NCBI RefSeq assembly: GCF_002934445.1
Contig: NZ_PTJE01000004.1
Span: 124,001 to 188,000 of the forward strand
Origin: Nonlabens xylanidelens
GTDB lineage: Bacteria > Bacteroidota > Bacteroidia > Flavobacteriales > Flavobacteriaceae
Length of the DNA stretch: 64,000 nucleotides
Direction of reading: 5' to 3'
Shown here: piece after piece, positions 6,974 through 51,036 of the stretch
How the letters are laid out: every line of letters starts with the position of its first letter
Position numbering within the stretch: position 1 is the stretch's first letter
Made by a program: the position numbers and the translations under genes
Notes under the pieces: generated by a model
Databases searched by the model: none
What the model saw: the letters and a program-made list of their open reading frames with translations, nothing else
Told to the model about the DNA's origin: nothing

Positions 6974-7134
6974 GAATTACTACAAACAATTGTCTAAAAA
7001 TGAGAATCTCTCTGTTTTAGTGGCTTCAAATAGAGAAATTAATGAAAACGGTACGATTCTATACTTCATTTAGGACTCTTTAAGACCTAGCTATATCGTT
7101 TTAGTAGGTATCTTGAATTCTCTTAAAACAACCT

Positions 7135-9432
7135 ATGAAAAGAATATTTTTACTAGCGCTAGCCATAGCTTTAATCTCATGTAATGATCAAAAGCTGACT
7201 TCTATAAACGTATCAAATATAGACGAGCTGCAAAGTGCAATTGACGACTCAAAAGCCGGAGATGTTATCACCATGAAAAACGGTATCTGGAAGGATGCTC
7301 AAATCAAATTTCATGGAATGGGAACAGAGCAAAAACCTATAGTTTTAAAAGCAGAAACACCTGGTGAGGTAATCTTAGAAGGACAGTCTTTTTTAAAATT
7401 AAGTGGTGAATATCTAGTTGCCAAAGATCTTTATTTTAAGAATGGATACACACCAGACGAAGCAGTTATAATATTTAGAAACTCCCCTGACTCTATCGCT
7501 TTTAACTGTCGTGTTACTGGTACAGTTATAGAAGAGTTTACACAACCTGATCGTCATAGAAAAGATCACTGGATAGAGTTTTATGGCAAACATAATGAAC
7601 TAGATCACAGTTATATTGCTGGAAAATCTAATGAAGGACCTACTTTAAAGGTATATCTTAATGGTAACGAACATGTAAATAATTATCATAAGATACATGA
7701 CAACCATTTCGGGCCTAGACCTAGAAAAGGTGGTCCTAAGGCTGAGACTATGCAACTAGGTGCTAGTACAACGTCTATGACACCGTCCTATACTCAAGTA
7801 ACTAATAACCTTTTTGAAAAATGTAATGGTGAGGTAGAAATTATTTCTAGTAAATCTAATTTTAATAACTTTTCTAATAACGTATTTCTAGAGAGTGAAG
7901 GATCTGTAGTAACTAGACATGGTAATTATGCAACTATAAGTGGTAACATATTTATAGGTAATGATAACCCTTATGTAGGTGGAATACGTGTTATTAATAC
8001 TGGTCACGTAGTAACTAATAATTATTTCTATAAAATGCGCGGTACAGAATTCCGTAGTGGACTGGCTGTTATGAACGGTATCCCTAAATCTCCTTTAAAT
8101 AGATATAACCAGGTAACTGATGTAGTTATAGCGCACAATAGCTGGATAGACTGTGAACAACCTATACATTTTTCTGTAGGTGTAAACACTGATCAGGCAG
8201 AGGTTTTACCACCGTCTGAAATAAGATCTGCACGTCCTAAAAGAGTCATATTTGCTAATAATCTTGTTTATAATGACAGATTTACTTCTTATCCTATTAA
8301 GGCTTATGATAAAATAGATGGTGTGAAATTTAAAAACAATTTACTGTTAAGTAATAAAAACATGGATTCTGATCGTGAAGATTTCACATTAAAATCTATC
8401 TCTAATACGTTAGGTGACGAGCTTTTTTACACTCCTGCACAGTATGATGGTAAGTTATATGATGGTTATGGTTTTAATGATATCGATGTAGATCTTTTTG
8501 GTAAATCTAGAAACCAAGATCAAAATTACATAGGTGCTATTATCCCACCAGTGAGCGATAAAAAAGCAACGGTAGATTATTCTATTTATGGTGCAAAATG
8601 GTTTACACCTTCTACTGGAAATAAAGATATAAAAACTCATACAGTTACAAATGCGAGTGAGTTCATGGCAGCTATTAAAGATGCTAATTCTGAAGATATT
8701 CTTTCTTTAAAAGAAGGTACTTACTTGATAGATGAAACGATCACACTAGCTAAGGAGTTAAAAATAACATCTGCCAATAAAGATGCTAGAGCAACTATAC
8801 AATTTGATAATTTAAAGACTGCTTTCTTAATGCAACCTAAAGGTATTTTACATTTAGAAAATTTAAATATTCTAGGTACTGCAGACCAAGATTTCTTCAG
8901 GACAGAAGATAAGGATATGTCTAAGGCATATGGTATACATCTTAATGACATAAGTGTTGAAAATTTCAAATCTGTGTTAGATGCGTCTAAAAGTTCATTT
9001 GCAGATGAGATTATAGTTAACAATTCTACTTTTAAAAACTGTATCAACGGATTTTTGCTAGACAAGGAAATAGATGATAAAGGAGATTACAACGTAGAGT
9101 TTCTAACTATAACAAAATCTAATTTTGACAACATATCTAACGAAGTGATAGATTTCTATAGAGGTGGTTATGATGAGTCTACCATAGGAGGTATTTTAAA
9201 CCTTTCTGGCAACACTTTTACCAACTCTGGTAAACTAGATAAAGATGAAATTCTAATCAATACTAGAGGTATCGTAAACGTGACTTTTGAGAACAATACT
9301 TTTACTAATAACGACACTAAGTTTACAGCTGTTTTATGGGGTGCCAAAGGGCAACAACCGGTTAACAATACAGTTACTAACTCTGGTGAAATTAAAGTAG
9401 TTGAAAATATAGAATTGAAACTAGTTTATTAA
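7135..9432 (+). CDS. PL6 family alginate lyase, lipoprotein (first copy)
   Basis: A 765-residue protein with a lipoprotein signal peptide (lipobox LISC, Cys16) and a right-handed beta-helix of the chondroitinase-B/PL6 type over about residues 22-470, followed by a second helix-like region to the end. The presumed catalytic pair is present: Lys240 in EIISSKS and Arg261 in TRHG, 21 residues apart as expected in PL6 lyases. PL6 enzymes cut alginate (often MG or G-rich blocks) by beta-elimination, giving unsaturated oligomers. The lipid anchor suggests an outer membrane place. The gene stands alone on the plus strand, opposite the PL17 operon, and ends at a strong terminator. The preceding 145 bases show no copy of the GntR-type operator found elsewhere in the locus. 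Exact specificity cannot be read from the sequence. Confidence 0.88.
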   Translation: MKRIFLLALAIALISCNDQKLTSINVSNIDELQSAIDDSKAGDVITMKNGIWKDAQIKFHGMGTEQKPIVLKAETPGEVILEGQSFLKLSGEYLVAKDLYFKNGYTPDEAVIIFRNSPDSIAFNCRVTGTVIEEFTQPDRHRKDHWIEFYGKHNELDHSYIAGKSNEGPTLKVYLNGNEHVNNYHKIHDNHFGPRPRKGGPKAETMQLGASTTSMTPSYTQVTNNLFEKCNGEVEIISSKSNFNNFSNNVFLESEGSVVTRHGNYATISGNIFIGNDNPYVGGIRVINTGHVVTNNYFYKMRGTEFRSGLAVMNGIPKSPLNRYNQVTDVVIAHNSWIDCEQPIHFSVGVNTDQAEVLPPSEIRSARPKRVIFANNLVYNDRFTSYPIKAYDKIDGVKFKNNLLLSNKNMDSDREDFTLKSISNTLGDELFYTPAQYDGKLYDGYGFNDIDVDLFGKSRNQDQNYIGAIIPPVSDKKATVDYSIYGAKWFTPSTGNKDIKTHTVTNASEFMAAIKDANSEDILSLKEGTYLIDETITLAKELKITSANKDARATIQFDNLKTAFLMQPKGILHLENLNILGTADQDFFRTEDKDMSKAYGIHLNDISVENFKSVLDASKSSFADEIIVNNSTFKNCINGFLLDKEIDDKGDYNVEFLTITKSNFDNISNEVIDFYRGGYDESTIGGILNLSGNTFTNSGKLDKDEILINTRGIVNVTFENNTFTNNDTKFTAVLWGAKGQQPVNNTVTNSGEIKVVENIELKLVY

Positions 9433-10748: not shown

Positions 10749-12053
10749 TTAAGCTCTTTGTAATGGCTTAATCTTAGGGATAAGTACCCAAACAGCAAAC
10801 ACAACGATTGCTACAAGTACAGCCCCTATAAGAAATACAAAAGAATACTTATCTGCTGGTAATTTTGAACCTATGTACCATGTTAGTCCTGCAGCAGCAA
10901 ACTTTGCAGACATACCAGCTAGTCCTGATAGCGTACCAACCGATTTACCACTATATAAATCACTAGGTAAAGTTTGAATATTTCCTATCGCAGTTTGGAA
11001 TCCGAATAAAACGACAGCCATGATTAAAACAGCTATTAATGGACTACCAGGATTACTTAATGATAATAATGCAGGAAGCATGATTGCACACCCTACACCT
11101 ATAGTTGTTTTTCTTACCTTGTTAACATCCCATCCTCTATTAAAGAAATTCTTTGCTAACAAACCACCGAACCAAGCACCAATCATAGCACCTAGATAAG
11201 GTATCCATCCATATTTCGTAATACCTTCTATACCCACACCGAATACGTTTACAAGGTAGTTAGGTATCCAGACTACAAAAATCCACCAGATAGGGTCTAT
11301 AGCCGCAGATGCTATAATAACACCCCAACTTTGTTTAAAGCCTAATAATTTACCGTAAGACATACTCTTAGGTTCTACCTCACCTTCTACAGTGGCAACT
11401 TCATTTTTCTGACCATTAAGAATACGATCTTTTTCCTCATCTGTAAGCCAAGGGTGTTTTTTAGGTCCAATTTTCACAACAACTAACCATGGTATTAACC
11501 AAAGAAACCCTAGTAAAGCGATAATCATAAAGATGATGTGCCAATGTAGTTTTTGTGCCATAAATCCAATAAGAGGTATCGATATTAACGCTCCAAAAGA
11601 AGCACCAAAATTAAATATACCTTGGGCGATTGCACGCTCATTAGTAGGGAACCACTCTGCATTACCTTTTGCAGCACCAGGCCAGTTACCAGCTTCAGCT
11701 AGTCCTAAAAGAGATCTCACAAATGTAAAACCTAGAACACCACTTACTAAAGCATGTAAACCAGTCGCTAGTGACCAAAAACCAATAGATAAAGCAAAAC
11801 CAAAACGTGTTCCTAATTTATCAAAAATTCTACCGAATAATGCCTGACCTAAAGCATAGGCGATAATGAAATATGTACCAATACTTCCATATATTTTTTT
11901 TCTACCGTCTGCATCTAATTCAGGGTAAAGCTCATCAGCAATACCTCCTTCAGTTTCCCATAAAACAGAAAACGCCTGTCTGTCTATATAATTTATTACG
12001 GCTGCTAGGGCAATTAACCCTACTACCCACCATCTTAATCCTTTGACTTTCAT
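10749..12053 (-). CDS. MFS transporter, hexuronate/ExuT-like (probable DEH or alginate-monomer uptake)
   Basis: A 434-residue inner membrane protein with about twelve hydrophobic helices and a central cytoplasmic loop near residues 195-235. The N-terminal WWVVGLIALAAVINYIDRQ stretch and the region around GRIFDKLGTR (the MFS loop 2-3 motif) are typical of the anion:cation symporter branch that includes the hexuronate transporter ExuT. In this operon it probably brings unsaturated uronates or DEH from the periplasm into the cytoplasm. It starts 3 bases after kdgF ends, which implies tight cotranscription. A substrate other than DEH is possible. Confidence 0.87.
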   Translation of the reverse strand: MKVKGLRWWVVGLIALAAVINYIDRQAFSVLWETEGGIADELYPELDADGRKKIYGSIGTYFIIAYALGQALFGRIFDKLGTRFGFALSIGFWSLATGLHALVSGVLGFTFVRSLLGLAEAGNWPGAAKGNAEWFPTNERAIAQGIFNFGASFGALISIPLIGFMAQKLHWHIIFMIIALLGFLWLIPWLVVVKIGPKKHPWLTDEEKDRILNGQKNEVATVEGEVEPKSMSYGKLLGFKQSWGVIIASAAIDPIWWIFVVWIPNYLVNVFGVGIEGITKYGWIPYLGAMIGAWFGGLLAKNFFNRGWDVNKVRKTTIGVGCAIMLPALLSLSNPGSPLIAVLIMAVVLFGFQTAIGNIQTLPSDLYSGKSVGTLSGLAGMSAKFAAAGLTWYIGSKLPADKYSFVFLIGAVLVAIVVFAVWVLIPKIKPLQRA

Positions 12054-12437: not shown

Positions 12438-14663
12438 TTATAATTTTATTAATTGGTGTGTTCCATCCCAAGAATAGGATTTCCCGTTATATTCTATTGT
12501 ATGATTCTTGTTGTTATCTCGCTTTCGCGAAAGCGTATATAAATACATAGCACCGCCAGCATTAAAGGTCACGATATCATAACCATCTTGCTGCTCATGC
12601 TTTAAGTTTGAAATTACAGATTTAGGATAAGTCACTGTCTCTTTAACAGGATCAAAGAATCCATGAGGCTCAATAACACTTGCAAATGTGTGACTAGTTT
12701 TATTCTTAGGCTGTCTTATTAAATACTGTCTCTGTAGGTTTATATTAAATTCAGGATCATTAGCACCAGTTTGGGTAATAAATAGTTGGGTACTAGCATC
12801 AGTAACACTAGTAATACTATAAAAACGTTGTGCTTGTAAGAATGAAAACTGAGTGTTAGTAGCATTTGATTTAGGAGAACCTTGTGCTAATACTTCTAGA
12901 TGATTATAACCATTATCTTTTCCTAAAACCGTTTTGTTAACTGGTCTGCTATAATCAAATTGAGTATCTATAATATCACCAAAGAAAGGATAATTTAAAT
13001 CCATTTGATGACTCGTTTTAGAATCGATGTGATACAAATCAATAAGGAATGGTCTGTTAGAAATTTCTGGTTCATTAATCATGGTTATAGAACGAGACAA
13101 GTTTGTACCATTATATGCTGTTGAATCTGCTGCTATACTTACTTGCAAACGTTCTCCACTCATATCTGTTTTTACAGCATGAGAAACATGTTCTTCAGAA
13201 TATTTTACATTTCCTTTATATTGAGATTTCTCATCTAGAACAACTGCTCCATGTGCAATGGTATGCTGTGCATATGTTTTATTTTCTGGTAGATACCTAC
13301 CACCTCTTTTAGTTTCTATATTTAAAAAACGTGCCGCACCATAATCTGGCATGATCTCGTTACCATAATCATATACAGATAAACTTAATCTATCAAAGTG
13401 TCCATGACCCATTCCTTGAGTAGAAAATTTAAGAACCGCCTGTAGTTGACCTGATGTATTTTGTGGACTGCGCATTAATGCAAGACCACCGCTTTTTCCT
13501 TCTACACCATCTGCTATAAACATACTAGGTCTGTTATAGAAATCTTCTGTATCGTCTGTAATAGCATTGGCAGCTATAACACCAGCGTCAGTGTATGATA
13601 TTTTATTCATCATTTTAATGACTGGTAAAAGACTTGCATCTTTATATTGCTTATAAGCTATGTTAGTGGCAAAGACTACCTCATCACTTTCCCATGTCTT
13701 ACTTTTAATGGCATCATTAATAGGATAAAATCTTCCTTGCTCATCTGTAAGTTGCAGTAATGTAGTTACCGCTTTTCTAAGAATACCATCTCTATGTTCA
13801 AAGATCTTAACCTCTGGTTCATTATTTTCAATAGCTTGAGCAAATGCAATAAAGGGCAAAATAGCATACCTATGGTAATAAGGACCTTCACTATAGAAAC
13901 CGTCGCTAGAGAATAAATGATCTAGTTGTGCAATAAAACCAGTTTTACCATCTTTATTAGATCCATAAATAGATCTTTGTACCATATCATCATCTCCTAA
14001 CACCATACCAGTCATACCGACAGCAGCTACAGACCATGTTCCATGATTGTGGATTTTATTAAAAACCTCATAACTATCTTCACTTAAGAATTTTGCCATA
14101 GGGCGTAATAAATCTTTTTCTATTTTTAAGCGTTCATCTTCGGTTAGATAACCACGAGTAAGATCATATGATTGTATCATATAAAAAAGAGTTACTGCCT
14201 CGTTAAGACCTTGCCAGTATAATTTACCGCCTGGATGATTCTCCTTGTCTTTAGGGTGCATACCTAAGGTAGGATACATATTTGCATATCCATCAAACAT
14301 ATTTCTTATATAAGTAAGCTTATCTTCTTGAGGATCTAAACTTTGAGATAATGCTACTTTATAAAGTTCGGCATAATTTTGTTTGTGTTTTTCATGAGAA
14401 TAACCACCACCTGCATCTACTGGTTGCGGTATCTCTATAGGTGCAGTAAGAATAACATCTACAGATTGTGATAATTCTTTTAAAGTGTTTTTTACAACAT
14501 CACTATTTGAGGATTTAAAATCTGCTATTCCATCGTCGCTTAAAAGCAATTTTGAACTAGAGTTAGTAGCCTCTATCGTTGTAGTATCACCACCTGCAGT
14601 AGTACTGTCCTCGCAAGAGACAACACCTAAAAGGCATACAATTAAAATTAATTTCCAATTCAT
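12438..14663 (-). CDS. PL17 family exolytic oligoalginate lyase, lipoprotein
   Basis: A 741-residue lipoprotein (lipobox VVSC, Cys17) with an alpha/alpha-toroid N-terminal domain and a heparinase II/III-like beta-sheet C-terminal domain, the PL17 layout. The motif HNHGTW holds the expected Asn206/His207, and GPYYHRY holds the expected catalytic Tyr263, 57 residues on as in the well-studied Alg17c enzyme. PL17 releases unsaturated monouronate from the end of alginate oligomers, feeding KdgF encoded next. The 3' coding end carries an exact copy of the 16-bp palindrome, read as LSRKR at about residues 710-714. It is the first gene of the operon and has a GntR-type operator candidate 57-91 bases upstream. 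Confidence 0.9.
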   Translation of the reverse strand: MNWKLILIVCLLGVVSCEDSTTAGGDTTTIEATNSSSKLLLSDDGIADFKSSNSDVVKNTLKELSQSVDVILTAPIEIPQPVDAGGGYSHEKHKQNYAELYKVALSQSLDPQEDKLTYIRNMFDGYANMYPTLGMHPKDKENHPGGKLYWQGLNEAVTLFYMIQSYDLTRGYLTEDERLKIEKDLLRPMAKFLSEDSYEVFNKIHNHGTWSVAAVGMTGMVLGDDDMVQRSIYGSNKDGKTGFIAQLDHLFSSDGFYSEGPYYHRYAILPFIAFAQAIENNEPEVKIFEHRDGILRKAVTTLLQLTDEQGRFYPINDAIKSKTWESDEVVFATNIAYKQYKDASLLPVIKMMNKISYTDAGVIAANAITDDTEDFYNRPSMFIADGVEGKSGGLALMRSPQNTSGQLQAVLKFSTQGMGHGHFDRLSLSVYDYGNEIMPDYGAARFLNIETKRGGRYLPENKTYAQHTIAHGAVVLDEKSQYKGNVKYSEEHVSHAVKTDMSGERLQVSIAADSTAYNGTNLSRSITMINEPEISNRPFLIDLYHIDSKTSHQMDLNYPFFGDIIDTQFDYSRPVNKTVLGKDNGYNHLEVLAQGSPKSNATNTQFSFLQAQRFYSITSVTDASTQLFITQTGANDPEFNINLQRQYLIRQPKNKTSHTFASVIEPHGFFDPVKETVTYPKSVISNLKHEQQDGYDIVTFNAGGAMYLYTLSRKRDNNKNHTIEYNGKSYSWDGTHQLIKL
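12520..12535. repeat. 16-bp palindrome, copy 4 (inside PL17 gene)
   Basis: Exact copy within the 3' part of the PL17 lyase gene, read in the LSRKR frame about 28 residues before the protein end. Confidence 0.9.
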
Positions 14664-14719: not shown

Positions 14720-14754
14720 AAATTGGTTGACCAATCTGGTTGCCCAAATTAAAG
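14720..14754 (-). promoter_or_regulatory. Candidate GntR operator upstream of PL17 operon
   Basis: A 35-base element identical at 34 positions to one at 38039-38073. It contains the dyad TTGGT-TG-ACCAA followed two bases later by a similar but imperfect TGGTTGCCCA dyad, so two adjacent sites are likely. It lies 57-91 bases upstream of the PL17 start. FadR-type GntR repressors bind short dyads of this kind; a protein of that type is encoded at 37315-38034. Confidence 0.75.
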
Positions 14755-14885: not shown

Positions 14886-15734
14886 TTAGCTTACTTTTCT
14901 TGACTTGTAAAAGATATTAAGTAATAATCCTGCAATGACCATCACCATACCTAAAATAGCCCATATCGTATAGGTTTCCATAAACCAGAACGCGCCTATA
15001 AGGACAGTAAAAATAACTTCTAGATATTTAAGAGGTGCAACTTGATTTGTAGATGCTATTTGAAAAGCTTTGGTCATAAAAAGTTGCCCTACAAAGCCTA
15101 CAACACCTAGACTACTTAAAATAATCCACTCATTACCTTGAGGAGTCCTCCAATCATTGAGAGCCAAAACACCTCCTAGCAAAGTTCCTATCGCCATAAA
15201 ATAATTAATGATTACAATAGGGTGATCTTGCTTACCTATTTTAGAAATAGTTACAAATACGATTCCCATTACCAATGCAGATGAAAATATCAAGACGAGA
15301 CCAATTAAACTAAGGTCGTTATCAAAACCTTTCATTACTAACACACCAGAAAAAGCTAATAGAAAGAACAACCATTGAATAGGTCTTATTTTTTCCTTGA
15401 GCCATATCACAGCAAAAATAGCTGCAAATACAGGTGATAAGTACCTAAGTACAACGGCAGTCCCTACAGGTAAATACTTTAAAGAAAGAAAAAATAATAT
15501 TAAAGAAACAGCACCAGCAATACCTCTAGTTACTAATAAACTTCTTTTATTCCCTAATATTGGTATTTTCTTATAAAGTAAGAACACCATAGTAAGAATT
15601 AAAGTCCCTAGCGATCTAAAAAACACTAATTCATAGGCACTGAAATCTATCAAATATTTTACAAGTCCATTCATAACTGCAAATGCCAGTGTACTGAACA
15701 ACATGTAAACAATAGCTTTTTGTAGGTCTTTCAC
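14886..15734 (-). CDS. EamA/DMT-family transporter
   Basis: A 282-residue membrane protein with about ten hydrophobic helices in two similar halves, each an EamA domain (roughly residues 5-135 and 150-275), as in drug/metabolite transporter family members. The motif around residues 85-100 (VGTAVVLRYLSPVFAAIFA) and the second-half counterpart near 230-250 are typical. It sits between the PL17 operon and the second SusC/SusD pair, on the same strand as both, with gaps of over 200 bases on each side, so it is probably its own unit. The substrate is unknown; many relatives export amino acids or metabolites. A link to alginate use is not supported by anything except position. Confidence 0.85.
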   Translation of the reverse strand: MKDLQKAIVYMLFSTLAFAVMNGLVKYLIDFSAYELVFFRSLGTLILTMVFLLYKKIPILGNKRSLLVTRGIAGAVSLILFFLSLKYLPVGTAVVLRYLSPVFAAIFAVIWLKEKIRPIQWLFFLLAFSGVLVMKGFDNDLSLIGLVLIFSSALVMGIVFVTISKIGKQDHPIVIINYFMAIGTLLGGVLALNDWRTPQGNEWIILSSLGVVGFVGQLFMTKAFQIASTNQVAPLKYLEVIFTVLIGAFWFMETYTIWAILGMVMVIAGLLLNIFYKSRKVS

Positions 15735-15893
15735 TTTAAATAAAATAAAACATCAATGATGTTGAGTTATTAATAATATACTAGTCAATTATACAGCCGA
15801 CAAAACTACAACGTCTAGTTTTATTATGACTTTTAATTCTCTAATTAAATGGATAAAAATAAATAGCTTTGATAAATGCTACTTAAATTTAAG

Positions 15894-15930
15894 CAAACAA
15901 AAATCCCAACGAATTAACATCGTTGGGATT
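15894..15930 (-). terminator. Terminator of the HTCS-linked SusC/SusD unit
   Basis: Perfect 11-base arms AATCCCAACGA and TCGTTGGGATT around a 7-base loop; on the minus strand the stem runs into TTTTTG. It lies 28 bases past the SusD stop codon. Confidence 0.88.
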
Positions 15931-15958
15931 AAAGCAATTGGCTATTTCAATCTTCTAT

Positions 15959-17482
15959 TTAGTAACCTGGATTTTGAGGTAATAAATTAGGATTTCTAGA
16001 AAGTTCATCTGCTGGAAGAGGCAATAAATAATCTTGCGCTGGATCAAATCCAGGAACAAGACCTTCATAACCGGTAGATCCGAATACCTCACTACCATTT
16101 CTTAATCTAGCTATATCATACCATCTTTTAAACTCAAAAGCTAATTCTAATCTTCTCTCATCTATAATAACATCTCTTAAATCATCTTGATTTAATCCAG
16201 ATACATCTGCTGGAAAAGCAGAACCATTACCACTACGAGCTCTTGCCCTAACACGATTAACATACCCCATAGCTTCATCACTACCACCACTAACTTCATT
16301 TAAAGCTTCTGCTGCGATCAAAAGAACCTCGGCATAGCGCATAAAATGGTAGTTATGGCTAGAGTTTCTACCATTACCATTACCTGTTAGACCAGTAAAT
16401 CTCGTGTATTTTGCTATATGCGGTCTATTCACTGCTCGAGAATCTAAACTTTGAAAAATCGTGAAAGAATTTTCTACATCGTCTACTATGTTAGTATCAT
16501 CAAAACTCACTTCTTTTCTGTAATCATTATCATCCCAGTCATTATATACAGCTAGAGTAGGCACCCCTACTGACCAACCGCCACCTGTTACATTAGGTTC
16601 ATATTGCTCATCACCTCTTATTCCTGTTAATGCTGGCATGTAATCTCTTCCATCATCACTAGGACTAAAACCGTTAAAGTCTAAAGAAAAGATAGGCTCT
16701 ACAGAAGAATCTACTGCATCTGCATTAAATAAGTTTTGAAAATCAGGATCTAAATCTAAGTTGTAAGCACCTTCATTACTAATTACTTCAAATGCCCAAT
16801 CATAAGCAGGCTGATGCTCTCCACGTGTTAAATAAACAAGAGCAAGGTATGACTGCGCTGCAGATTTTGCCGGCAGGGATCTTGCAGGTTGTGTATCTGG
16901 TAACCACTGCTCTGCAAATTCTAAGTCAGCAATAATATTTGCGTATACATCGTCAACTGAAGTCTTACTGATACTATTGGCCGCTTGAACATCTGTTACC
17001 GGTTCACTTAAATAAGGTATCGCACCAAATTGCCTAACGAGATGAAAATAGGTAAACGCCCTTGCAAAATATGCTTGAGCAACGATAGGGTTTTTATTCT
17101 CATCAGTATCAGCTACCAACTCTGCTCCGGCGATAGCGTTATTTGCAGCAGCAATAATTTGATACGTTCTATTCCAGTATCCTGAAATCATACCATTATC
17201 TGCAGGAACGTTGAATTGGTCATGCTCAATTCTTCGGGATGAGGTTGTCGGATCTCCTATGGCAACCATGTCACTACGAAGCATTAAGGTTAAGGACATC
17301 TTACGCCCCCAAAAATCTTCATGCAACATATGACCATAAGTTCCATTTACCGCAGTCTGAATATCTTGTGTTGACTGAAAGAATCCTTCTGGAGCAAGCA
17401 GTCCTACAGGTTCCTCTTCTAGATCTGAACAACCCAATATCGACAATCCTATAACTAGGAATATATATTTATAAGCTTTCAT
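15959..17482 (-). CDS. SusD/RagB-family outer membrane lipoprotein (unit with HTCS)
   Basis: A 507-residue lipoprotein with lipobox ILGC (Cys18) followed by SDLEEEP, an acidic stretch of the kind linked with surface export of lipoproteins in Bacteroidota. The protein has the SusD-type TPR-like helices and the typical C-terminal block LDERRLELAFEFKRWYD-like region near residues 425-445 (here IDERRLELAFEFKRW) and the closing YLLPLPADELSRNPNL motif. SusD caps the SusC porin and binds glycan. It starts 27 bases after its SusC partner ends. The substrate cannot be read directly; the pair is next to a hybrid two-component regulator and inside an alginate locus. Confidence 0.9.
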   Translation of the reverse strand: MKAYKYIFLVIGLSILGCSDLEEEPVGLLAPEGFFQSTQDIQTAVNGTYGHMLHEDFWGRKMSLTLMLRSDMVAIGDPTTSSRRIEHDQFNVPADNGMISGYWNRTYQIIAAANNAIAGAELVADTDENKNPIVAQAYFARAFTYFHLVRQFGAIPYLSEPVTDVQAANSISKTSVDDVYANIIADLEFAEQWLPDTQPARSLPAKSAAQSYLALVYLTRGEHQPAYDWAFEVISNEGAYNLDLDPDFQNLFNADAVDSSVEPIFSLDFNGFSPSDDGRDYMPALTGIRGDEQYEPNVTGGGWSVGVPTLAVYNDWDDNDYRKEVSFDDTNIVDDVENSFTIFQSLDSRAVNRPHIAKYTRFTGLTGNGNGRNSSHNYHFMRYAEVLLIAAEALNEVSGGSDEAMGYVNRVRARARSGNGSAFPADVSGLNQDDLRDVIIDERRLELAFEFKRWYDIARLRNGSEVFGSTGYEGLVPGFDPAQDYLLPLPADELSRNPNLLPQNPGY

Positions 17483-17509
17483 ATTTCTATTTATTTTGAT
17501 GTTATTTTA

Positions 17510-20500
17510 TTAAAATTTAATATTTGCACTGAAGTTAAACGATCTTAATGTAGGATAGTTACCAAAATCAAAACCTCTCGTTGTATTTGAATCTCTGTTT
17601 GAAACTGAGCCAGCACCGAAATAACTAGCTTCAGGATCAAGACCAGAATAATTAGTTATAGTAAACAGATTTTGCGCACTAATTGCTAACCTAACACTAC
17701 TGACCCCCATTTTTTCCACAAACGTATTAGGAAAAGTATAACCCACAGAGATATTTTTAAGTCTCACATAACTTCCATCTTCTAAGAATTGAGACGAAAT
17801 TCTCTTTGTTCTTAAAGCAACACTAGGAATATTTGTATTCGTATTTGAAGGAGTCCAAGCATTTAAAATATCGGTAGAAGCATTAGAATCACCACTATTA
17901 AGTTGTAAAGCTGTTAAATTCATAATATCTCCACCGACCGCACCTTGAAAGAATATATTCATATCAAAATTCTTATAAGTAAAATTATTACTGAAACCAA
18001 AAGAAAAATCCGGATTAGGATCACCTAGAATTTTACGATCAGCTGTCGTAATCTCACCATCTATCATTCCATCTTCATTAGGTATATCAGTATACAAAGG
18101 ATCTCCAGCTACAGAACCACTGAAAACTGCGGTTCCTTCAGGAAGAGCACCTCCTTGATACACACCTCTATATTCATATCCATAAAAAGCTCCAGTCGAT
18201 TCTCCTTCTCTTAAAACATGAGTCTCATCAATATTAAAATATCCTGGAGAAGCGTCTAAGAAAATATCTTCACCATTAAGTAATGTGCTAACTTCATTAC
18301 GATTTGTAGAGATATTAAAATCTGTAGACCAAGTAAAATTCTCACCAACAATATTCCTACTATTAATATTAAATTCAAATCCTTTATTATTAACCTCTCC
18401 AATATTACGTAAACTGGCGGTAGTCAAGAAACCTAGGTATTCTGCTTGACTGTCATCAGCAATAATTAAATCCTCTGTATCAATATTATAATAATCCGCA
18501 GATAAAGTTATTCTATCATTTAATAAACCTACATCTAGACCTACATTTGTTTGATAAGATGTTTCCCACTTAAGATTTGGATTTGCCGGCTGATCTGGAA
18601 CCACATTATTAACTGCATCACCATTGATTACAGCATAAACGCTATTAAACCTAGCAAGCGATTGGAAAGCAGAAATCCCTTGATTACCTGTAGCACCATA
18701 ACTTGCTCGCAACTTTAATTCAGAAATATTATTTACGTTAGCAAAGAAAGGTTCATTTGAAATTTTCCATCCAATCGCCCCAGAAGGAAAAACCGCATGC
18801 TTTTCATTTTCTGCAAAATTTGAAGCACCATCACGACGTATGGTAGCTGTTATTAAATATTTATCATCATAATCATAATTGACACGACCGAATTGCGACT
18901 GAATTTCAGAAACGGTTCTTGAAGATGATGGTATCAATTGAACAGAACCACCACCTAGATTGAAGTAAGAGAATGAATCAGAAATAAATTGCTGAGCACC
19001 AGCTGCATAATTCTGATTTGTTAAATTTTGATAAGAATATCCACCTAGTAAAGTTAGATCTCCTTTTCCTATTTCACGCTTGTAAGTAAGGAAGTTCTCA
19101 CTCAATAAATTAGATCGTTTAAAACTACTTATTGCAGCTACTCCACCTACTCCACCAGCAGTAATAGTTAATGAAGATGGTCTGAATACTCCAGCAGTTT
19201 CATTTTCTGACTCATAACCTAAGGATGATCTAAAAGTTAAACCTTCAATTATTTCATAATTAAGAGACAAGTTAGCACGATATAAATCATTTTTGGTTTC
19301 ATTAACACTTTGTGTTGCTACAGCAAATGGGTTGTCAATATCATCACCTACAGAATTCACTGTAAAGTTTCCATCTGTATCAAAGACACCTAAATCTGGT
19401 GCAAATCTAAATGAAGATGCAACTACATCATCTCCACCACCGTTAGCCAGATTACCGTTTGATTGAGTAGGTACACCGTTTTGAGTTCCTCTGCTTGCAA
19501 ATAAATTCAGTCCTAATTTTAATTTGTCATTTACTTGAGCATCAAGATTAGATAAGAATGTAAACCTTTCAAAGTCAGAATTCACAACCACACCTTCTTG
19601 ATCAAAGTAATTTGCAGAAGCATAGAAATTTATATCCTCAGTTCCTCCTGAGAATGAAAATTGATGTTGTTGAATGTTTCCATTTTGATAAATCAAATCT
19701 TGCCAATCTGTATTAGATCCATTTGAAACATATGCTGGATTAATTATCTGCTGATAAGTCGTAAATTGATCTGCATTTAATAAATCTAACTCATTTGCGG
19801 TTCTTTGGTTAGAATAATTAAAATTATATTCAACACTTATTTTTCCAACCTTACCTCTCTTAGTAGTAACAAGTACAACACCGTTAGAACCACGAGAACC
19901 GTAAATTGCAGTTGCTGACGCATCTTTTAACACCTCTATGGAAGCAATATCTGCTGGTTGTGGAAAATTAGCTCCTACAAATCCATCAACAACTATTAAA
20001 GGACTACTACTAGCGTTTATAGATGTATTACCTCTAATACGTATATTAATGGGCGCGCCAGGCTCACCACCATTATTTGTTTGCACCTCAACTCCTGCCG
20101 CACGACCTTGAAGAGCCTGAGCAGCATCTAATACTGGGAAAGCATTAAGTTCTTCTGATTTTACAGAACTAACGGCGCCAGTTACATCACTTTTTTTACG
20201 AGTACCATAACCTATAACTACTACTTGGTCTAGTAAAGCTAGATCATCTTGTAAAGTAACATTAATTACAGTCTGTCCGTTAACAGGAACATCTAACGTA
20301 GTGTAACCTATAGAACTAAACATTAATACAGCCTCTGCATTAGGAACTGTTATCGTATAATCACCATTAAAATCTGTAGATGTACCTGTAGATGTACCTT
20401 TTATAGAAACACTCACACCTAATAGCTCTTCTCCTTCAGTACTCACAACTTTACCTGTTATTGTAGAAGTTTGCGCATAGGTTAAGAATGAACCAAAAAT

Positions 20501-20554
20501 GCAAATTAGCAAGAGTCCATATCTTAATAATTGCGGTTTGTTTTTTTGTTGCAT
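17510..20554 (-). CDS. SusC/RagA-family TonB-dependent outer membrane receptor (unit with HTCS)
   Basis: A 1014-residue outer membrane protein. After a signal peptide (ends near residue 28, TYAQ) comes a carboxypeptidase-D-like domain (about residues 30-110), a TonB-box/plug region with the SusC signature VVIGYGTRKKSDVTGAVSS (near 112-130) and the IRIRGNTSINASSSPLIVVDG block, then a 22-strand beta-barrel to the end. It imports oligosaccharides into the periplasm with its SusD lid, powered by TonB. Its upstream gap of 209 bases follows the HTCS gene, and the HTCS probably controls it. It is clearly different from the second SusC in this locus (1050 residues) and so may handle a different oligomer. 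Confidence 0.92.
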   Translation of the reverse strand: MQQKNKPQLLRYGLLLICIFGSFLTYAQTSTITGKVVSTEGEELLGVSVSIKGTSTGTSTDFNGDYTITVPNAEAVLMFSSIGYTTLDVPVNGQTVINVTLQDDLALLDQVVVIGYGTRKKSDVTGAVSSVKSEELNAFPVLDAAQALQGRAAGVEVQTNNGGEPGAPINIRIRGNTSINASSSPLIVVDGFVGANFPQPADIASIEVLKDASATAIYGSRGSNGVVLVTTKRGKVGKISVEYNFNYSNQRTANELDLLNADQFTTYQQIINPAYVSNGSNTDWQDLIYQNGNIQQHQFSFSGGTEDINFYASANYFDQEGVVVNSDFERFTFLSNLDAQVNDKLKLGLNLFASRGTQNGVPTQSNGNLANGGGDDVVASSFRFAPDLGVFDTDGNFTVNSVGDDIDNPFAVATQSVNETKNDLYRANLSLNYEIIEGLTFRSSLGYESENETAGVFRPSSLTITAGGVGGVAAISSFKRSNLLSENFLTYKREIGKGDLTLLGGYSYQNLTNQNYAAGAQQFISDSFSYFNLGGGSVQLIPSSSRTVSEIQSQFGRVNYDYDDKYLITATIRRDGASNFAENEKHAVFPSGAIGWKISNEPFFANVNNISELKLRASYGATGNQGISAFQSLARFNSVYAVINGDAVNNVVPDQPANPNLKWETSYQTNVGLDVGLLNDRITLSADYYNIDTEDLIIADDSQAEYLGFLTTASLRNIGEVNNKGFEFNINSRNIVGENFTWSTDFNISTNRNEVSTLLNGEDIFLDASPGYFNIDETHVLREGESTGAFYGYEYRGVYQGGALPEGTAVFSGSVAGDPLYTDIPNEDGMIDGEITTADRKILGDPNPDFSFGFSNNFTYKNFDMNIFFQGAVGGDIMNLTALQLNSGDSNASTDILNAWTPSNTNTNIPSVALRTKRISSQFLEDGSYVRLKNISVGYTFPNTFVEKMGVSSVRLAISAQNLFTITNYSGLDPEASYFGAGSVSNRDSNTTRGFDFGNYPTLRSFNFSANIKF

Positions 20555-20693
20555 AAGATTTTCTTTAAGTTGAAATATTTTAAGTTAGTTTTTAAAAAAA
20601 TGTCCTACATCGTTTGCGAAAACCATGCGGCAGAGAACACCTCTTTAACGTTGTGATAAAATTAACTTAACCTTAGCGATCAATAATTCAGAA

Positions 20694-20720
20694 AAGGGTA
20701 TACAAAAATCCGAAACCCTT
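20694..20720 (-). terminator. Weak hairpin after the HTCS gene
   Basis: AAGGGT and ACCCTT can pair around a 15-base loop, followed on the minus strand by TTC and AT-rich DNA. It lies in the 209-base gap between the HTCS stop and the SusC start, which must also hold the SusC promoter and any HTCS binding site; no clear -7 box was found there. Confidence 0.3.
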
Positions 20721-20763
20721 AAAAATATAGGCTTCACGGTGAAAAATTTACATTTTCCGTAAA

Positions 20764-23700
20764 TTACTCTGAGAATTTCTTTGAATAATTAGAAGGCGTT
20801 TCTCCATATGCTTTTTGGAAGCATTTACTGAAATATTTTGGGTTTCTAAACCCAACTTTATAACTCACTTCAGAAATATTAAGAGTTCCTAATTCAAGAA
20901 GTTGAGCCGCTCTTTTCATTCTAAAATGTTGAATAAATTCATTAGGAGTAAAATTAGTCCATGCCTTTACTTTAATAAATAACATGGTACGACTTACACC
21001 TAATTCAGAACTGAATGATGGAATATCAAATTGTTCATTAGGAATGTTCTCCTCGACTATAGCAATGGCTTTTTTAAGTAATTGCTCATCTACAGAGGTT
21101 ACATTTATCTCCTCGGGAGAGAAGTCATTTGAAGAACCAAATTTTTCTTTCAGTTTTGCCTTACTATGCAGTAAGTTTTTAATACGTAATTGAAACTCAT
21201 TTATATTAAACGGTTTACTTATATAATCATCTGCACCACTTTCTAGTCCCTCAAGTTTATATATTAAAGAAGATCTAGATGTTAAAAGAATCACCTGTAT
21301 ATGGCTAGTTCTAATATCCTTTTTAACATTTGCACATAGCTCTGTACCTGCCATCTTAGGCATCACCACATCACTTACTATTAAGTCTGGACTGTTTTTA
21401 ATAGCTAGTTTAAAAGCGTCTTCTCCATTATCTGCTTCGATAACATTAAAATCTGGTTTTAATAAATTAACCATAAAAGAAAGTAATGAGTGGTTGTCTT
21501 CCACAACTAGTATGGTAGGCTTATCATCGTCACTTAATAGATCTAGATCTTCACTATTTGAAAATGTAGGAAGTTCACTTAACTGCGATGTATATTGAGA
21601 TAGGTCGTCACTAAATTTAAAATCTTTTAAAATCTCATGATCTTCAAGGTGCTCTCTTCCCAATTTTAAAGCAACTTTAAAACTAGATCCCTGACCTTTT
21701 TCACTTTCTATGATTATCGTACCATGATGTAATTCTACTATGTTCTTTGCAATATTTAAACCTATACCGGTACCTTGATGGTATGGAGAAGGTTTTTCTC
21801 TATCTGCTTCTACCTCATAAAACCTATCAAATACTTTATCTTGTTCTACTGGTGATATCCCTATACCAGTGTCATTAATAGACACAAATATTTCTCGATC
21901 ACTTTTAGTCACTTTAATATCAATGGCACCGCCTTTGTCCGTATATTTAAATGCATTAGAAATAAGGTTAAAGAAAACTCTTTCTAGCTTTTTTCTATCA
22001 TAATAAACTAAAATCTCATCTTCTACAGACTCAAAGCTGTAGTCGTACTCTCCTACTTTAGCATATTCATTAAAACTAAGATAGATCTCTTCTAGAAATT
22101 TAACAATATTACCTCGAGCGCTTTGTAGCTCAAATTGATTTTGTTCTAGCTTTCTAAAATCCATTAATCTATTAATCAATTGTAAGAGATGATTTGCATT
22201 GCTCTCTACAACGAGTAATTTTTTGTACATCTTATTACTTCCCTTATAATCGGCAAGTAATTGCTGCAATGGACCTAAAATGAGCGTAAGAGGTGTTCTA
22301 AACTCGTGAGAAATGTTTGTAAAGAATTTTAATTTTGCCTCGTTTATACCGCGATCTCTTTCTTTCTGTAATTGCTCGAATTTAAGCTCTTGCTGTAATC
22401 GAGTTTTAGATTTTAACACGTTAAGAATAAAATAAATCGCTATCCCTAGGACTAACGCATATCCTAATAAAGCCCACCAGCTCAACCACGGAGTAGGTTT
22501 TGCAGCCACATCTAGTCTAGTAATACCGCTTTTTGCTCCATCTCCATTAATACCTCTTACTTCAAAAACATAATTTCCAGAATTTTGTAATGTATAGGTA
22601 GCCGCATTTTGACTAGTCGTATTCCAGTTTTCTTCTAGACCATTTAATCTATACTCATAAGTATTGCTCGATGCGTTATGAAAGCTAGGCATAGCAAATT
22701 CTATAGTAAAATTACGTTGATGATGATCTAGTTTTACCGCTTTCGCGAAAGCGATATTATCAACAACATCTCCCTCATATTCTAAGATCGGTTTACTGTC
22801 ATAACCTGTAGAAAAACCAGTTATCAAAACTGAAGGGACGAAAGAATCTTTAAACAATCTAGCGGTGTTAAAACGTGTAATCCCAGATATACCGCCAAAG
22901 AGTAAATCGTCATTAAACAATTTAATGGCAGATCCATTGCTAAACTCGTTTCCGACCAAACCATCCTTTTTACCTTTAAGTGCAATTACCTTTTGTTCTA
23001 CAACATCATACTGTAACACGCCTTGATTACTACTTAACCATAAATAACCATCTTTATCTTGTAGAATAGCGTGAATGGTCGTTATATCATTTCCTTCATA
23101 ATTAAGAGGCACCTGATTAAATGTGTCGTTAGATTTCACAAAAAGTCCATGAGCCTTAGTACCTACCCATAACTTATTATCAAAAGACTGGAAGACAGTT
23201 AATATATTAAAACCAGCCGCTTGATTACTGTTGTACAAATAGCTTTTTATATTTTTATTCTCATCAAGAGCATTTAATCCATTTTCTGTTCCTATCCACA
23301 AAGTTTTATTATTGTCTAGCAATAAGGTTCTCACAATATTGCTACTCAAACCATTGTTTTTATTAAAAAATGACACTTCTGCATCTAGCAGGGTAGACAC
23401 CACACCTATTCCTTTACCAGCAGTACCTATAAATAACTGGTCTTGATCTTTGGCAAAAGCATAAACCCCTGTACTAAGCAAAGAATCATTTATCGCAGCA
23501 AATCTATCTTCCTTTTCAAATGAGTTGGTATTGATATTATAGATTTGAAAACCATGAGATAAAGTACCGATAAACAATCTATTTTTATCCAGATAGCTGG
23601 ATTTTATATTATCATCCAACAACTCACTATTTGCTGTGGTTAGATAAGAGAAAAGTTCTGTCTGTAGATCAAGGATATTTAATCCTCCTTGTTCTGTGCC

Positions 23701-24792
23701 TATAAATAAATATTTATCATTTGCTTGTAACGAGCTTACGACAGAATAGTTGAGACCAGACTTTTCACCATTGTTTATATAATTTCTAAAATTACCATTT
23801 GTAGCGTTCCAAATATTTGCACCTCCATAATAGGTTCCTACCCATATAGATCCACTAGAGTCTTTATGCAGTGATTTTACCAAATTTTTTGAGAGGCTAT
23901 TTTTATCTTCTAGATTATTTTGGAGATGAGTTACTATGCCGTCTTCATAAATATAGATACCGTTATCGGTACCGATCCATAATCGTCCAGAATTATCCAC
24001 CCTTAATTTTCTAATTTCATCAATCTTTTGAACTTTATTGATAGGATGTGGAACTATTGCTTTGGTATTTTTATTATAAATTAAAACCCCAGAGCTGTTA
24101 GTGGCAAGTAAATAATCATCTCCACCAGCAGGAATTAAATCTGATATATGTTCATCTTTAAAAACTGGTATTTTTTGGGCGTCATATTTACCTTTATTTT
24201 GCTTTATAATTAGCCATAGCCCCTTATTAGAAGCTACTAAATAAGAATCGTTTTCTAATTCTAAAACACTTTCTACTTTTATTGAAGAGTGATTTACATT
24301 AAAAACATCATTATAAAAGACATTTTCTTGAGGGTTATATATAGAAAGCCCCTTAGAAGTACCTAACCATATATGACCATCTTTTGTAGCGTAAACTTCT
24401 TGTATTCTATTACTTAGAATAGAATTAATTCCTTCTTGTGCAAAAAATCGAGTAAACAACTCTGTCCTAGGATCATAATTATTTAATCCATTATACGTAC
24501 CTATCCATAATTTACCATCTAGACCTGTTTCTAATGATAATATATCGCTACTACTTAAAGAATTATCATTTCCATCTTCTGTTTTAAATACAGAAATTTT
24601 ATGACCATCATAGCGATTAAGACCATCTCTAGTGGCTATCCATACTTGCCCTAAATTATCTTGTTCTATGGCAGTAGCGCTACTTTGAGACAGACCGTCA
24701 TCTGTAGACAAATGTTTAAATTGAAAACGACCGGTCTGGGCAGTCGCAATACAAGAAAAAATAAATATAATGGCGCAAAGCGATCTACACAT
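20764..24792 (-). CDS. Hybrid two-component system regulator (HTCS)
   Basis: A 1342-residue one-protein signalling system of the type used by Bacteroidota to sense glycan breakdown products. In order: signal peptide; two seven-bladed propellers of repeated WIGT-type units (about residues 25-660); a Y_Y_Y domain (about 690-760); one membrane helix (about 770-795); a histidine kinase with [11 protein letters not shown] (His near 828) and ATP-binding [18 protein letters not shown] and [11 protein letters not shown] motifs; a receiver domain from about 1090 with [11 protein letters not shown] around the phosphoacceptor Asp; and an AraC-type HTH near 1235-1340 ending in [25 protein letters not shown]. 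It lies just upstream of a SusC/SusD pair and near an esterase, which are the likely targets. An exact 16-bp palindrome is read as AFAKA near residue 680. Confidence 0.93.
22738..22753. repeat. 16-bp palindrome, copy 5 (inside HTCS gene)
   Basis: Exact copy, read as AFAKA between the last propeller blade and the Y_Y_Y domain of the HTCS. Confidence 0.9.
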
Positions 24793-24811
24793 AAAGAGTA
24801 AAATAAGTTGG

Positions 24812-24846
24812 GGTTTAAAAATAGTTAAATAGTTTGATTTTAAACC
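24812..24846. repeat. Inverted repeat upstream of the HTCS gene
   Basis: Perfect 9-base arms GGTTTAAAA and TTTTAAACC around a 17-base spacer, 20-54 bases before the HTCS start codon. It could be an operator or a hairpin in the leader. Confidence 0.4.
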
Positions 24847-25079
24847 ATTTTACTGTAAGCTTAGATAAACTACTATGTAATAAGTTAGTTGTCTATTTTT
24901 TTATTTAATTCTTATTGATTCCAACGGTTACACAATTGACATTACTTATGAAAATTAGTATAAATGTATTGCGCAAATAGAAAACAAATTGCGACTTTTA
25001 GGTATCTAATTTAACTAGCGTTGCCGTGTTAAAAAGACAGGTATAGCGATTAATATCATAGAATACATACCACTCTTAA

Positions 25080-25106
25080 GATAAACACAGAAATCCCTGT
25101 GTTATC
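25080..25106 (-). terminator. Possible terminator hairpin after the esterase gene
   Basis: GATAAACACAG pairs with CTGTGTTATC with a single bulge. It lacks a good T tract on the minus strand, so it may instead act as an RNA 3'-end stabiliser. Confidence 0.35.
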
Positions 25107-25136
25107 AAAATCAAATTATCTAATATAGGTTGAGGA

Positions 25137-26420
25137 TTAATATCCAGACACTTTAATTTTTTTGAACAACCATTTTTTACCTTGTTGTTGTACTTCTGGG
25201 TACATCCAGTGGGCAGCATCATATGCGATCTCTATGGTTTTCTTTGCTTTTATCTCCTGTAACATAGCGGTAACAGAGCTGGCCGGAACTATATTGTCAT
25301 TATAACCATAAGCATAATAACCTGGCGTTTTAAGATTTCTAGCAAAATTCACGATGTCATAATATCTAGCTACTGCTCTTTTTTCTTCTGTAAAATCAAA
25401 TCCTCTTTCAAAAATTCTAGGCCAGCCACCTGCGCGCCCATTATTAAAACCATCTAGATCTGCTAGAGCCGGATAAAATGCCGCAATAGCATCTACCCTA
25501 TCATCTAGAGCAGCTGTCATTATAGTAAGCGCTCCACCTTGAGATCCACCCATTACTGCTAGGTTATCACCATCAAATTTATCAATCGTATGAATAAAAT
25601 CTATCGCTCTAATACAAGCAGTGTACACACGCTTGTAATAATACGCATCACGGTCGTCCATTCTATTCCAGTAATATTTATATAAAGCTCCTTTATCAAG
25701 GTTATCATAAACATCGCTGCCATATAAGTTTACTGGTATACCATGAATACCTATTTGTAAAGAAATAACGTCATCACTCTTATTAGTGCCTTTATAAGAA
25801 CGCACACCTGCACCTGGAACAGTTAACACAGCTGGATAAATCCCTTCTTTTTTAGGCATCATTAAAATTCCATATATGTAAGACTTCTTACCGTGATTAA
25901 ATCTTATATGATAAGCAAGGTTCTTATCTGTATCCTGCTCTGGAAGTCTTGTATACTGGGGATTCAGTTCTATTTTACGAGCTTGTCTTATCGCTTTTTT
26001 CCAAAAAGAATCAAAATCTGCTGGCATTTGAGTAAAGGTCTTGATATTATCCACATCTATTCCTGCTGTGGCAGTATTAGAAAAAGTCTTGCCATTCTCT
26101 TTATAATTTACCGTTAACCTTAAAAAACCTGGTTGATCCATCTTAATTCCCTCTATAGTACCATGACCTGTTTTAAGTGTAATGGTAGAATTAATAGTAG
26201 GTAACATTTGTTCTTCAGCAATGGTATATTGAACCTTTGCATTCTTTACTAATTTACCATATTTAAAAATAGAGATCTCAAAGTCTGCTCTTTCACCTAC
26301 TTCATATTCATAACTATCACTTACCGGAGCGACTAGAATTCTAATAAGATCTTCTTTCTGTGATTGACACACTCCAGATAAACTTGACATTAATAGTACT
26401 AGTATAATATAAATCCTCAT
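25137..26420 (-). CDS. AXE1/CE7-like acetyl esterase (secreted)
   Basis: A 427-residue protein with a signal peptide (MRIYIILVLLMSSLSGVCQS) when started at 26420; the frame is open to 26453, but the extra 11 residues would spoil the signal peptide. A beta-sandwich-like N-terminal part (to about residue 125) precedes an alpha/beta-hydrolase domain of the acetylxylan esterase/cephalosporin deacetylase family, with the nucleophile motif GGSQGG, an acid in YGYNDNIVP, and the histidine in AAHWMYPE. Such enzymes remove O-acetyl groups from sugars. Its place next to the HTCS and SusC/SusD pair suggests it trims acetyl groups from the glycan imported there, for example acetylated alginate of bacterial origin, but acetylated xylan or pectin fragments are equally possible from sequence. 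Confidence 0.82.
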   Translation of the reverse strand: MRIYIILVLLMSSLSGVCQSQKEDLIRILVAPVSDSYEYEVGERADFEISIFKYGKLVKNAKVQYTIAEEQMLPTINSTITLKTGHGTIEGIKMDQPGFLRLTVNYKENGKTFSNTATAGIDVDNIKTFTQMPADFDSFWKKAIRQARKIELNPQYTRLPEQDTDKNLAYHIRFNHGKKSYIYGILMMPKKEGIYPAVLTVPGAGVRSYKGTNKSDDVISLQIGIHGIPVNLYGSDVYDNLDKGALYKYYWNRMDDRDAYYYKRVYTACIRAIDFIHTIDKFDGDNLAVMGGSQGGALTIMTAALDDRVDAIAAFYPALADLDGFNNGRAGGWPRIFERGFDFTEEKRAVARYYDIVNFARNLKTPGYYAYGYNDNIVPASSVTAMLQEIKAKKTIEIAYDAAHWMYPEVQQQGKKWLFKKIKVSGY

Positions 26421-26597
26421 GTTAATAATTTTAAACTTGTTATAATTAAACATTCCATTTCACTTTCTCATTCCATAACCGATCATAGCTGTTGAGCATA
26501 TTGAGCCCTATACAAAACCATTGTTAGTATGTAAAACATCGTTTCATCTCACTACATAAACCAGTAATAATTATAGATATGGATTTTGTGGGTATCT

Positions 26598-38038: not shown

Positions 38039-38073
38039 AAATTGGTTTACCAATCTGGTTGCCCAAATTAAAG
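38039..38073 (-). promoter_or_regulatory. Candidate GntR operator, autoregulatory copy
   Basis: Second copy of the 35-base element at 14720-14754; it differs at one base (T for G in the spacer of the first dyad). It lies only 4-39 bases before the regulator start codon, so binding would directly block its own transcription or start. Confidence 0.75.
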
Positions 38074-40462: not shown

Positions 40463-40537
40463 AATTTTATTATCTATTCACCGCTGTACATTTAATCCGT
40501 CACAACGATTATGTTTTATATAGCTCTTAATACCTTT

Positions 40538-40545
40538 CAAAAATA
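40538..40545 (-). promoter_or_regulatory. Candidate -7 box of the YqeY gene
   Basis: Reads TATTTTTG on the minus strand, a match to TAnnTTTG, about 75 bases upstream of the gene start. A TTG lies 24 bases further upstream, slightly wider than usual. Confidence 0.45.
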
Positions 40546-40561
40546 CGAATTTGAATTGCAT

Positions 40562-40593: not shown

Positions 40594-40619
40594 CTATGTG
40601 CATTTAGGGGAAAATGCTT

Positions 40620-44089: not shown

Positions 44090-44093
44090 TTCC

Positions 44094-48438: not shown

Positions 48439-48439
48439 T

Positions 48440-51033: not shown

Positions 51034-51036
51034 TTG

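Follow-up and report, generated by a model that had tools for sequence, protein, structure and literature searches.

What is a hybrid two-component sensor-regulator (HTCS) with its own SusC/SusD pair, but with no lyase, doing in the middle of an alginate locus? The question arises from a stretch of 64,000 nucleotides from Nonlabens xylanidelens, which we call the window. In it, intact open reading frames (ORFs) for SusD, SusC, an HTCS, and a CE7-like esterase lie on the minus strand amid alginate genes (Table 1). The ORFs and their domain matches confirmed this arrangement, which had been predicted from the DNA alone, at the same positions. Among ORFs of at least 100 amino acids between positions 15959 and 26453, there was no lyase.

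Gene content of the segment

The genes on either side make up an alginate polysaccharide utilization locus (PUL), with PL6 and PL17 lyases, SusCD, a GntR regulator, and the KDG pathway. One flank holds PL17, PL6a, an MFS transporter, and an SDR gene, while the other holds a TIG lipoprotein, PL6, SusD/SusC, GntR, KDPG aldolase, and KDG kinase. The alginate locus adjoins an ftsZ-ftsA-mur cell-division cluster (40620-56167). Within the segment, the HTCS combines a periplasmic propeller sensor with a kinase, a receiver, and an AraC helix-turn-helix, which is the makeup of the regulator in HTCS-controlled SusCD PULs. Its nearest solved sensor is 4a2l (313 bits), which we take to be BT4663, and its HEFRTP (at 829) and VSDVVMP (at 1139) motifs presumably contain the phospho-acceptors. 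Neither 15959-24792 nor the gaps around it hold a dedicated carbohydrate-active enzyme to go with SusC2 and SusD2; relatives possess such enzymes. The window sequence is free of N, and the genome (3.28 Mb) is 99.96% complete.

Table 1. Genes, candidate regulatory sites, and joins, by position in the window
Feature	Position	Strand	Description
Weaker HTCS-type site (candidate)	7051-7080	+	54 bp before PL6a
PL6a alginate lyase	7135-9432	+	PF14592, 609 bits; nearest solved 8bwk alginate lyase, 408 bits
PL17	12438-14663		Flanking alginate gene
GntR-type operator (candidate), before PL17	14723-14754		32-bp sequence
EamA-type permease	14886-15734	-	PF00892
GH88-GH2 deletion footprint	15775-15856		82 bp replacing 3.85-kb L031 segment
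SusD2	15959-17482	-	PF07980 (120 bits) and PF14322; surface lipoprotein lid
SusC2	17510-20554	-	TIGR04056, 880 bits; TonB-dependent transporter
Switch point	20204-20215 (susC2 nt 339-350)	-	Informative-site change point; just after TonB-box-like LDQVVV (nt 321-339)
HTCS-type 30-bp direct-repeat motif (candidate)	20682-20711	-	127 bp before susC2 start
HTCS	20764-24792	-	Reg_prop propeller, Y_Y_Y, HisKA, HATPase, receiver, AraC HTH
Uxu-Kdu-DUF4861-TRAP-UxaC footprint	24891-25136		246 bp replacing 11.1-kb block of G010/L115
CE7/AXE1 esterase	25137-26453 (end 26420 from second ATG)	-	PF05448, 130 bits
GntR-type operator (candidate), before gntR	38042-38073		32-bp sequence

Ancestry of the HTCS, SusC2, and SusD2

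To place these genes, we searched with the HTCS and obtained 68 loci in named genomes, of which 35 were labeled (L031 to L065); 28 of the 35 carry an HTCS at 40% identity or more. Counting genes at 45% identity or more, GH88 occurs in 26 of these 28 loci, GH2 in 25, and SusC2 in 22. The loci end at about 24 kb, so that the counts for outer genes are lower bounds (UxuA in at least 18, UxuB in at least 17, and KduI in at least 16). GH88 and a glucuronidase-like GH2 gene are both present in all 22 named loci that have HTCS and SusC2. Six of the 28 loci have the HTCS without SusC2, and four of the six keep GH88. A PL38-like gene accompanies GH88, GH2, UxuA, and KduI in 10 of the 28. The nearest solved structures are 3wiw for the relatives' GH88 (314 bits) and the beta-glucuronidase 6d7j for their GH2 (636 bits).

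A search of 397 genomes of the family, starting from the transporter, gave a consistent result. By visual comparison of their positions, a GH88 relative lies within about 5 kb of 26 of the 38 SusC genes found at 50% identity or more; one copy, in G132, has an internal stop. Where 1.5-kb flanks were examined (30 of the 38), an HTCS accompanies 18 SusC2 genes besides that of the window, and GH88 is nearby in all 18. The 12 SusC genes without GH88 are that of the window and 11 others; for 7 of these 11, the stretch fetched includes PL6 or PL17. Within Nonlabens, SusC2 occurs at 58% identity or more in 8 of 23 genomes; GH88 is adjacent in 7, the window being the exception. In a quick tree, the SusC2 of the window groups with GH88-linked transporters (fork with SH-aLRT 92), outside the mainly alginate clade.

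The complete composite locus is preserved in G405, in the same order as in the window: PL6a, SDR, PL17, EamA, GH2, GH88, SusD2, SusC2, and HTCS; then beta-helix, UxuB, UxuA, KduI, KduD-like, DUF4861, TRAP, UxaC, PL7, and CE7; and then a 270-amino-acid gene, two LTD genes, TIG, PL6b, SusD1, SusC1, GntR, KDPG aldolase, and KDG kinase. Relative to G405, the window lacks GH2-GH88, the block from beta-helix to UxaC, PL7, the 270-amino-acid gene, and one LTD gene, and it has an extra MFS gene. This transporter gene (10749-12053) sits between SDR and PL17; it is absent from G405, G404, and G394, where SDR and PL17 are spaced by about 410 bp. Synteny thus shows that HTCS-SusC2-SusD2 is the core, for sensing and import, of a glucuronate-glycan PUL that lies inside the Nonlabens alginate/KDG locus, and the gene content of relatives indicates descent from a PUL of the GH88-GH2-UxuA-KduI type. 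A PUL of this kind adjoins alginate-type genes (PL6, PL17, GntR, SDR, or KDG) in other genera as well (L041, L043, L050, L053, L054, and L055), so the linkage recurs.

Two candidate clues to the substrate were set aside. The beta-helix gene (558 amino acids in L032) gave a model with a pLDDT of 75 from nine sequences, and TM-scores were at most 0.49 among the best 50 matches listed, with phage depolymerases at the top. The nearest solved SusC belongs to a dextran utilisome (8aa4, 531 bits); few SusCs have been solved, and the genome context is one of uronates.

Loss of enzymes

In the window, GH88, GH2, and the Uxu/Kdu/TRAP block are reduced to short joins. The first join is bounded by 15600-15774, matching L031:22744-22917, and by 15857-16034, matching L031:18718-18889; the EamA-type permease next to it directly follows GH2 in most Nonlabens relatives. 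The second is bounded by 24701-24890 (L115:2376-2567) and 25137-25250 (L115:13664-13777). Because relatives retain the genes, their absence reflects loss rather than non-acquisition. A translated search of four intergenic gaps for gene remnants returned nothing better than an E value of 0.03 apart from flanking genes. Nor were the enzymes found elsewhere in the genome: GH88, UxuA, and KduI had no matches, leaving it short of a glucuronate-glycan PUL; the GH2 TIM-barrel search returned a single weak, partial match (29.6 bits); and PF05426 matched nothing except PL17.

Exchange of the SusC2-SusD2 cassette

The transporter has a history of its own. Compared with L031, the window is native through the HTCS, the promoter, and SusC up to about residue 113, after which it resembles L034, from N. 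ulvanivorans PLR, to just past SusD. Over its first 108 residues, SusC2 shares 97% identity with L031 and 50% with L034; the barrel shares 91% with L034 and 55% with L031, and SusD2 shares 92% with L034 and 55% with L031. The 5' switch was located by a two-change-point model, which did not place the 3' edge; that edge is read from sliding identity only. Thus, SusC2 from the TonB box onward, together with SusD2, is a cassette that was exchanged for a homologous version, and the promoter, signal peptide, and N-terminal extension are native. With sharp breakpoints and a SusCD history in conflict with that of the flanking genes, the locus has the marks of allelic SusCD exchange. The window and L034 cassettes differ by about one synonymous change per site, and therefore L034 is not a recent donor. 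L034 itself switches at nt 305-351, likewise at a TonB-box-like LDQVVV, and compared with L048, also from N. ulvanivorans, its extension is 99% and its barrel 60% identical. In Hyunsoonleella, two species (L041 and L037) have GH88 genes that are 97% identical and SusC barrels that are 64% identical, probably another cassette exchange.

Across 27 loci, barrel identity followed that of the plug (Spearman's ρ = 0.82) and SusD (0.80) far more closely than that of the HTCS (0.34) or GH88 (0.18). Identity of the SusC extension, by comparison, followed the HTCS (0.63) more than the barrel (0.37) and was only weakly related to GH88 (0.31). Cassette types also cross genera in the SusC2 tree. With slightly more doubt than conviction, we propose that in flavobacterial uronan PULs the region that begins at the TonB box and ends with SusD is a cassette that sets specificity and can be interchanged. 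It would pass from one species to another, and from glucuronate PULs to alginate PULs or the reverse, through recombination at the TonB-box sequence. The N-terminal extension would be a host- or locus-matched adaptor that stays with the local HTCS and is not matched to substrate, and the window would represent a case where the gate was swapped, the locus's own enzymes were lost, and the sensor was rewired to an alginate lyase. This proposal is weakened because the extension is not clearly retained outside Nonlabens, where pairs with different barrel types have extensions (41 to 73% identity) about as divergent as their barrels (60 to 67%). Among the literature matches listed, in a search with subscription papers mostly outside its reach, there was no earlier report of such a TonB-box cassette. 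The function of the extension (PF13715) is described as unknown in the available text of Gray et al. (2021, PMC7782687), where its deletion stopped growth on levan. Nonlabens offers a natural experiment on this domain, which tracks the sensor while the remainder of the transporter is exchanged.

Candidate regulatory sites

Two sets of candidate sites separate the segment from its surroundings. The alginate genes had been predicted to be under a GntR protein, and this gains support from a 32-bp sequence before PL17 and gntR, which GntR would be expected to bind. At three or fewer mismatches, these are the only two sites in the window, compared with none in 100 shuffles, and five other genomes carry its 26-bp core, in six stretches altogether. 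It is the longer form that stands out, as the short palindrome TTGGTNNACCAA alone had 2 matches versus 2.5 expected by chance. No GntR-type operator was found at the HTCS-SusC2-SusD2 triad at the same threshold.

Instead, a 30-bp direct repeat of a type linked to HTCS precedes susC2. It is the sole window match at three or fewer mismatches (none in 100 shuffles) and scores 34.2 to 34.5 bits with matrices built without the window and L031. The motif reaches 17 bits within 300 bp of 23 of 27 HTCS-linked susC2 genes versus 1 of 15 susC2 genes without HTCS; in the remaining 4 it lies farther out, within 450 bp (27 of 27 in a 700-bp range), the 15 controls having been scanned to 300 bp. Because the HTCS-linked genes were used to train the matrix, the independent results are the window score and the 15 controls. 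Upstream of GH88, a site of at least 14 bits occurs in 15 of 34 cases, 14 of them in HTCS loci. The separate module of the original prediction therefore stands for HTCS-SusCD, set apart from the GntR-linked alginate genes by different promoter motifs, but not for the esterase, which synteny places elsewhere (see below).

A weaker site before PL6a raises the possibility of a link between the two systems. Judged by matrix, it scores 13.4 bits, the second best in the window (9.6 bits and sixth with an earlier matrix), and lies within the range of maxima of a 64-kb null (mean, 12.4; maximum, 17.5); a degenerate pattern was written after the site had been seen, and its chance estimate is not independent, so that the matrix gives the fairer test. 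Stronger sites lie 63 bp before PL6a in J394, J404, and L033. Among seven PL6a upstreams with an HTCS in the locus, three reach 16 bits, two of them from near relatives, and J405, L050, and L054, with HTCS present, have no HTCS-type site before PL6a. The L033 locus has kept the HTCS and the PL6a site, while SusCD, GH88, and GH2 are missing. The HTCS may thus have been drawn into alginate use, with PL6a as a candidate member of its regulon, and the site in the window itself is suggestive only. The "shared lyases" that had been proposed for the segment gain some support from it.

The CE7 esterase

By synteny, the esterase is part of the alginate operon and not of the HTCS unit. We group it with the alginate genes because it lies beside PL7 and the LTD-side alginate genes in G405, N. 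xiamenensis (L119), and L033, and because the HTCS PULs of N. ulvanivorans and G394 have no CE7 close by. In N. xiamenensis, CE7 and the HTCS PUL share a contig, some 45 to 55 kb apart, and in G010, which lacks PL17, it lies between UxaC and KDPG aldolase. CE7 was found in none of the non-Nonlabens HTCS-SusC2 stretches fetched (each at most 24 kb), and there is no HTCS-type site before it (-0.6 bits). The protein has a GGSQGG motif and aligns with the deacetylase 1l7a over residues 140-433, with matching Ser, Asp, and His columns that we take to be the catalytic triad. Within the alginate operon, it may deacetylate acetylated alginate.

With CE7 outside the unit, O-acetylated alginate is no longer supported as the target of HTCS-SusCD, as had been suggested. 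Of the alternative offered, a different acetylated glycan, the ancestry supports a different uronate glycan, but not the link of HTCS-SusCD to acetylation. We found no paper joining acetylated alginate, an esterase, and polysaccharide utilization in our literature search. CE7 was rejected as a marker of HTCS-type PULs: homologs at 37 to 46% identity occur in 25 of 397 family genomes, and the 19 of 25 stretches fetched had no common PUL context (9 are near an mfd-like gene, those of L134 and L135 lie beside SusCD genes, and that of L127 has a GH88 relative nearby), and thus give little information on substrate. In L033, a Nonlabens metagenome-assembled genome, three TGA codons interrupt the CE7 match (3518-4826) in the locus that also lacks SusC2, SusD2, GH88, and GH2. 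The 270-amino-acid gene beside CE7 (L033:2724-3533; J405 40393-41208), missing from the window, has a subthreshold match to PF14099 (Polysacc_lyase; 24.5 bits in the L033 copy).

Function of the remaining genes

What, then, do the three genes do without enzymes of their own? The most likely explanation, and one we consider probable, is that they form a second, reduced arm of uptake that serves acidic oligosaccharides, is induced by oligosaccharides, and is now tied to alginate. The HTCS would sense a periplasmic uronate oligosaccharide and then switch on SusC2 and SusD2, perhaps along with the alginate lyase PL6a. Once imported, beta-uronan oligosaccharides would be substrates for PL6 and PL17, the lyases of the GntR-linked alginate pathway. 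Use is favored by low omega on the window branch (0.055 for SusC2, 0.068 for SusD2, and 0.079 for the HTCS) and by the exact promoter site. Consistent with this are the SusC2 relatives in alginate PULs, those 7 of 11 stretches without GH88 that have PL6 or PL17; counting against it are the grouping of SusC2 with GH88-linked transporters and a PL6a site within the null. The only difference between beta-1,4-glucuronan and polymannuronate is at C2. This small difference, together with PL17 and PL38 lyases for both polymers, would make re-use for alginate oligosaccharides a chemically modest step. Both families hold such lyases according to the available text of PMC5966431 and PMC13027841.

The strongest competitor to a second uptake arm, though clearly less probable, is that HTCS-SusC2-SusD2 lost its function along with its enzymes and that decay is not yet visible. 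The dedicated enzymes are gone, as both the genome searches and the footprints attest; this state was seen in only one of the eight Nonlabens genomes with SusC2; and in L033 the locus lacks SusCD as well. Omega in SusC2 and SusD2 is slightly raised, being highest on the window branch among the three taxa compared, but it is still low, the three long ORFs are intact, and the promoter site has been kept exactly. The low omega may, however, reflect the period before enzyme loss. We regard it as unlikely that a glucuronan-like glycan containing glucuronate (GlcA) is still imported and degraded by enzymes that went unrecognized here. The ancestral GH88 and GH2 partners, the GH88-linked position of SusC2, and the inclusion of a glucuronan lyase in the PL17 family (PMC5966431, available text) would fit such a role, but the genome is without UxuA, KduI, or GH88, its lone GH2 match is weak, and PF05426 finds only PL17. 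Least probable of all is the single HTCS-SusCD-CE7 module of the original prediction, dedicated to acetylated alginate or another acetylated glycan. The genes are adjacent in the window, and the esterase looks like a deacetylase; in other genomes, though, CE7 keeps company with PL7 and alginate genes, HTCS PULs occur without a close CE7, and CE7 lacks the HTCS-type site upstream.

As a reduced uptake arm, the segment is an example of a polysaccharide system that has been taken apart and perhaps put to new use: the enzymes went, and the sensor and gate stayed. It also calls for caution in annotation: the presence of alginate lyases beside a SusCD pair does not mean that the pair originated as an alginate transporter, and the CE7 gene here belongs with the alginate operon.

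Comparison with known systems

The available text of PMC3878776 describes heparin (BT4663) and hyaluronan (BT3334) HTCS regulons in Bacteroides thetaiotaomicron, with direct repeats as HTCS motifs. The window shares with these PULs the HTCS architecture, the direct-repeat promoter motif, the SusC/SusD target, and uronate chemistry, but its HTCS-SusCD has no dedicated enzyme as a neighbor. The alginate PULs known from marine Flavobacteriia and from gut Bacteroides have PL6 and PL17 lyases and SusCD, and that of B. eggerthii also has an MFS transporter, a GntR regulator, and a CE20 esterase (PMC6298971 and PMC11381880, as far as their text is available). The window resembles them in all of these components except that its esterase is CE7, not CE20, and that it holds a second, HTCS-linked SusCD from another PUL.

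In the degradation of glucuronan and GlcA-containing glycans, the lyases belong to PL38 and PL17 (PMC13027841 and PMC5966431, available text). The HTCS loci of relatives are similar in having GH88, GH2, UxuA, KduI, and, in 10 of 28, the PL38-like gene; the window is without these enzymes, and the substrate of the flavobacterial PUL is putative. Finally, allelic variation has reportedly been seen in the fructan SusCD of B. thetaiotaomicron strains and in RagAB of Porphyromonas gingivalis (PMC11817032). As in those cases, the transporter pair varies from strain to strain within an otherwise conserved locus; in contrast, the switch here lies at the TonB box, the extension remains native in Nonlabens, and the cassette types cross genera.
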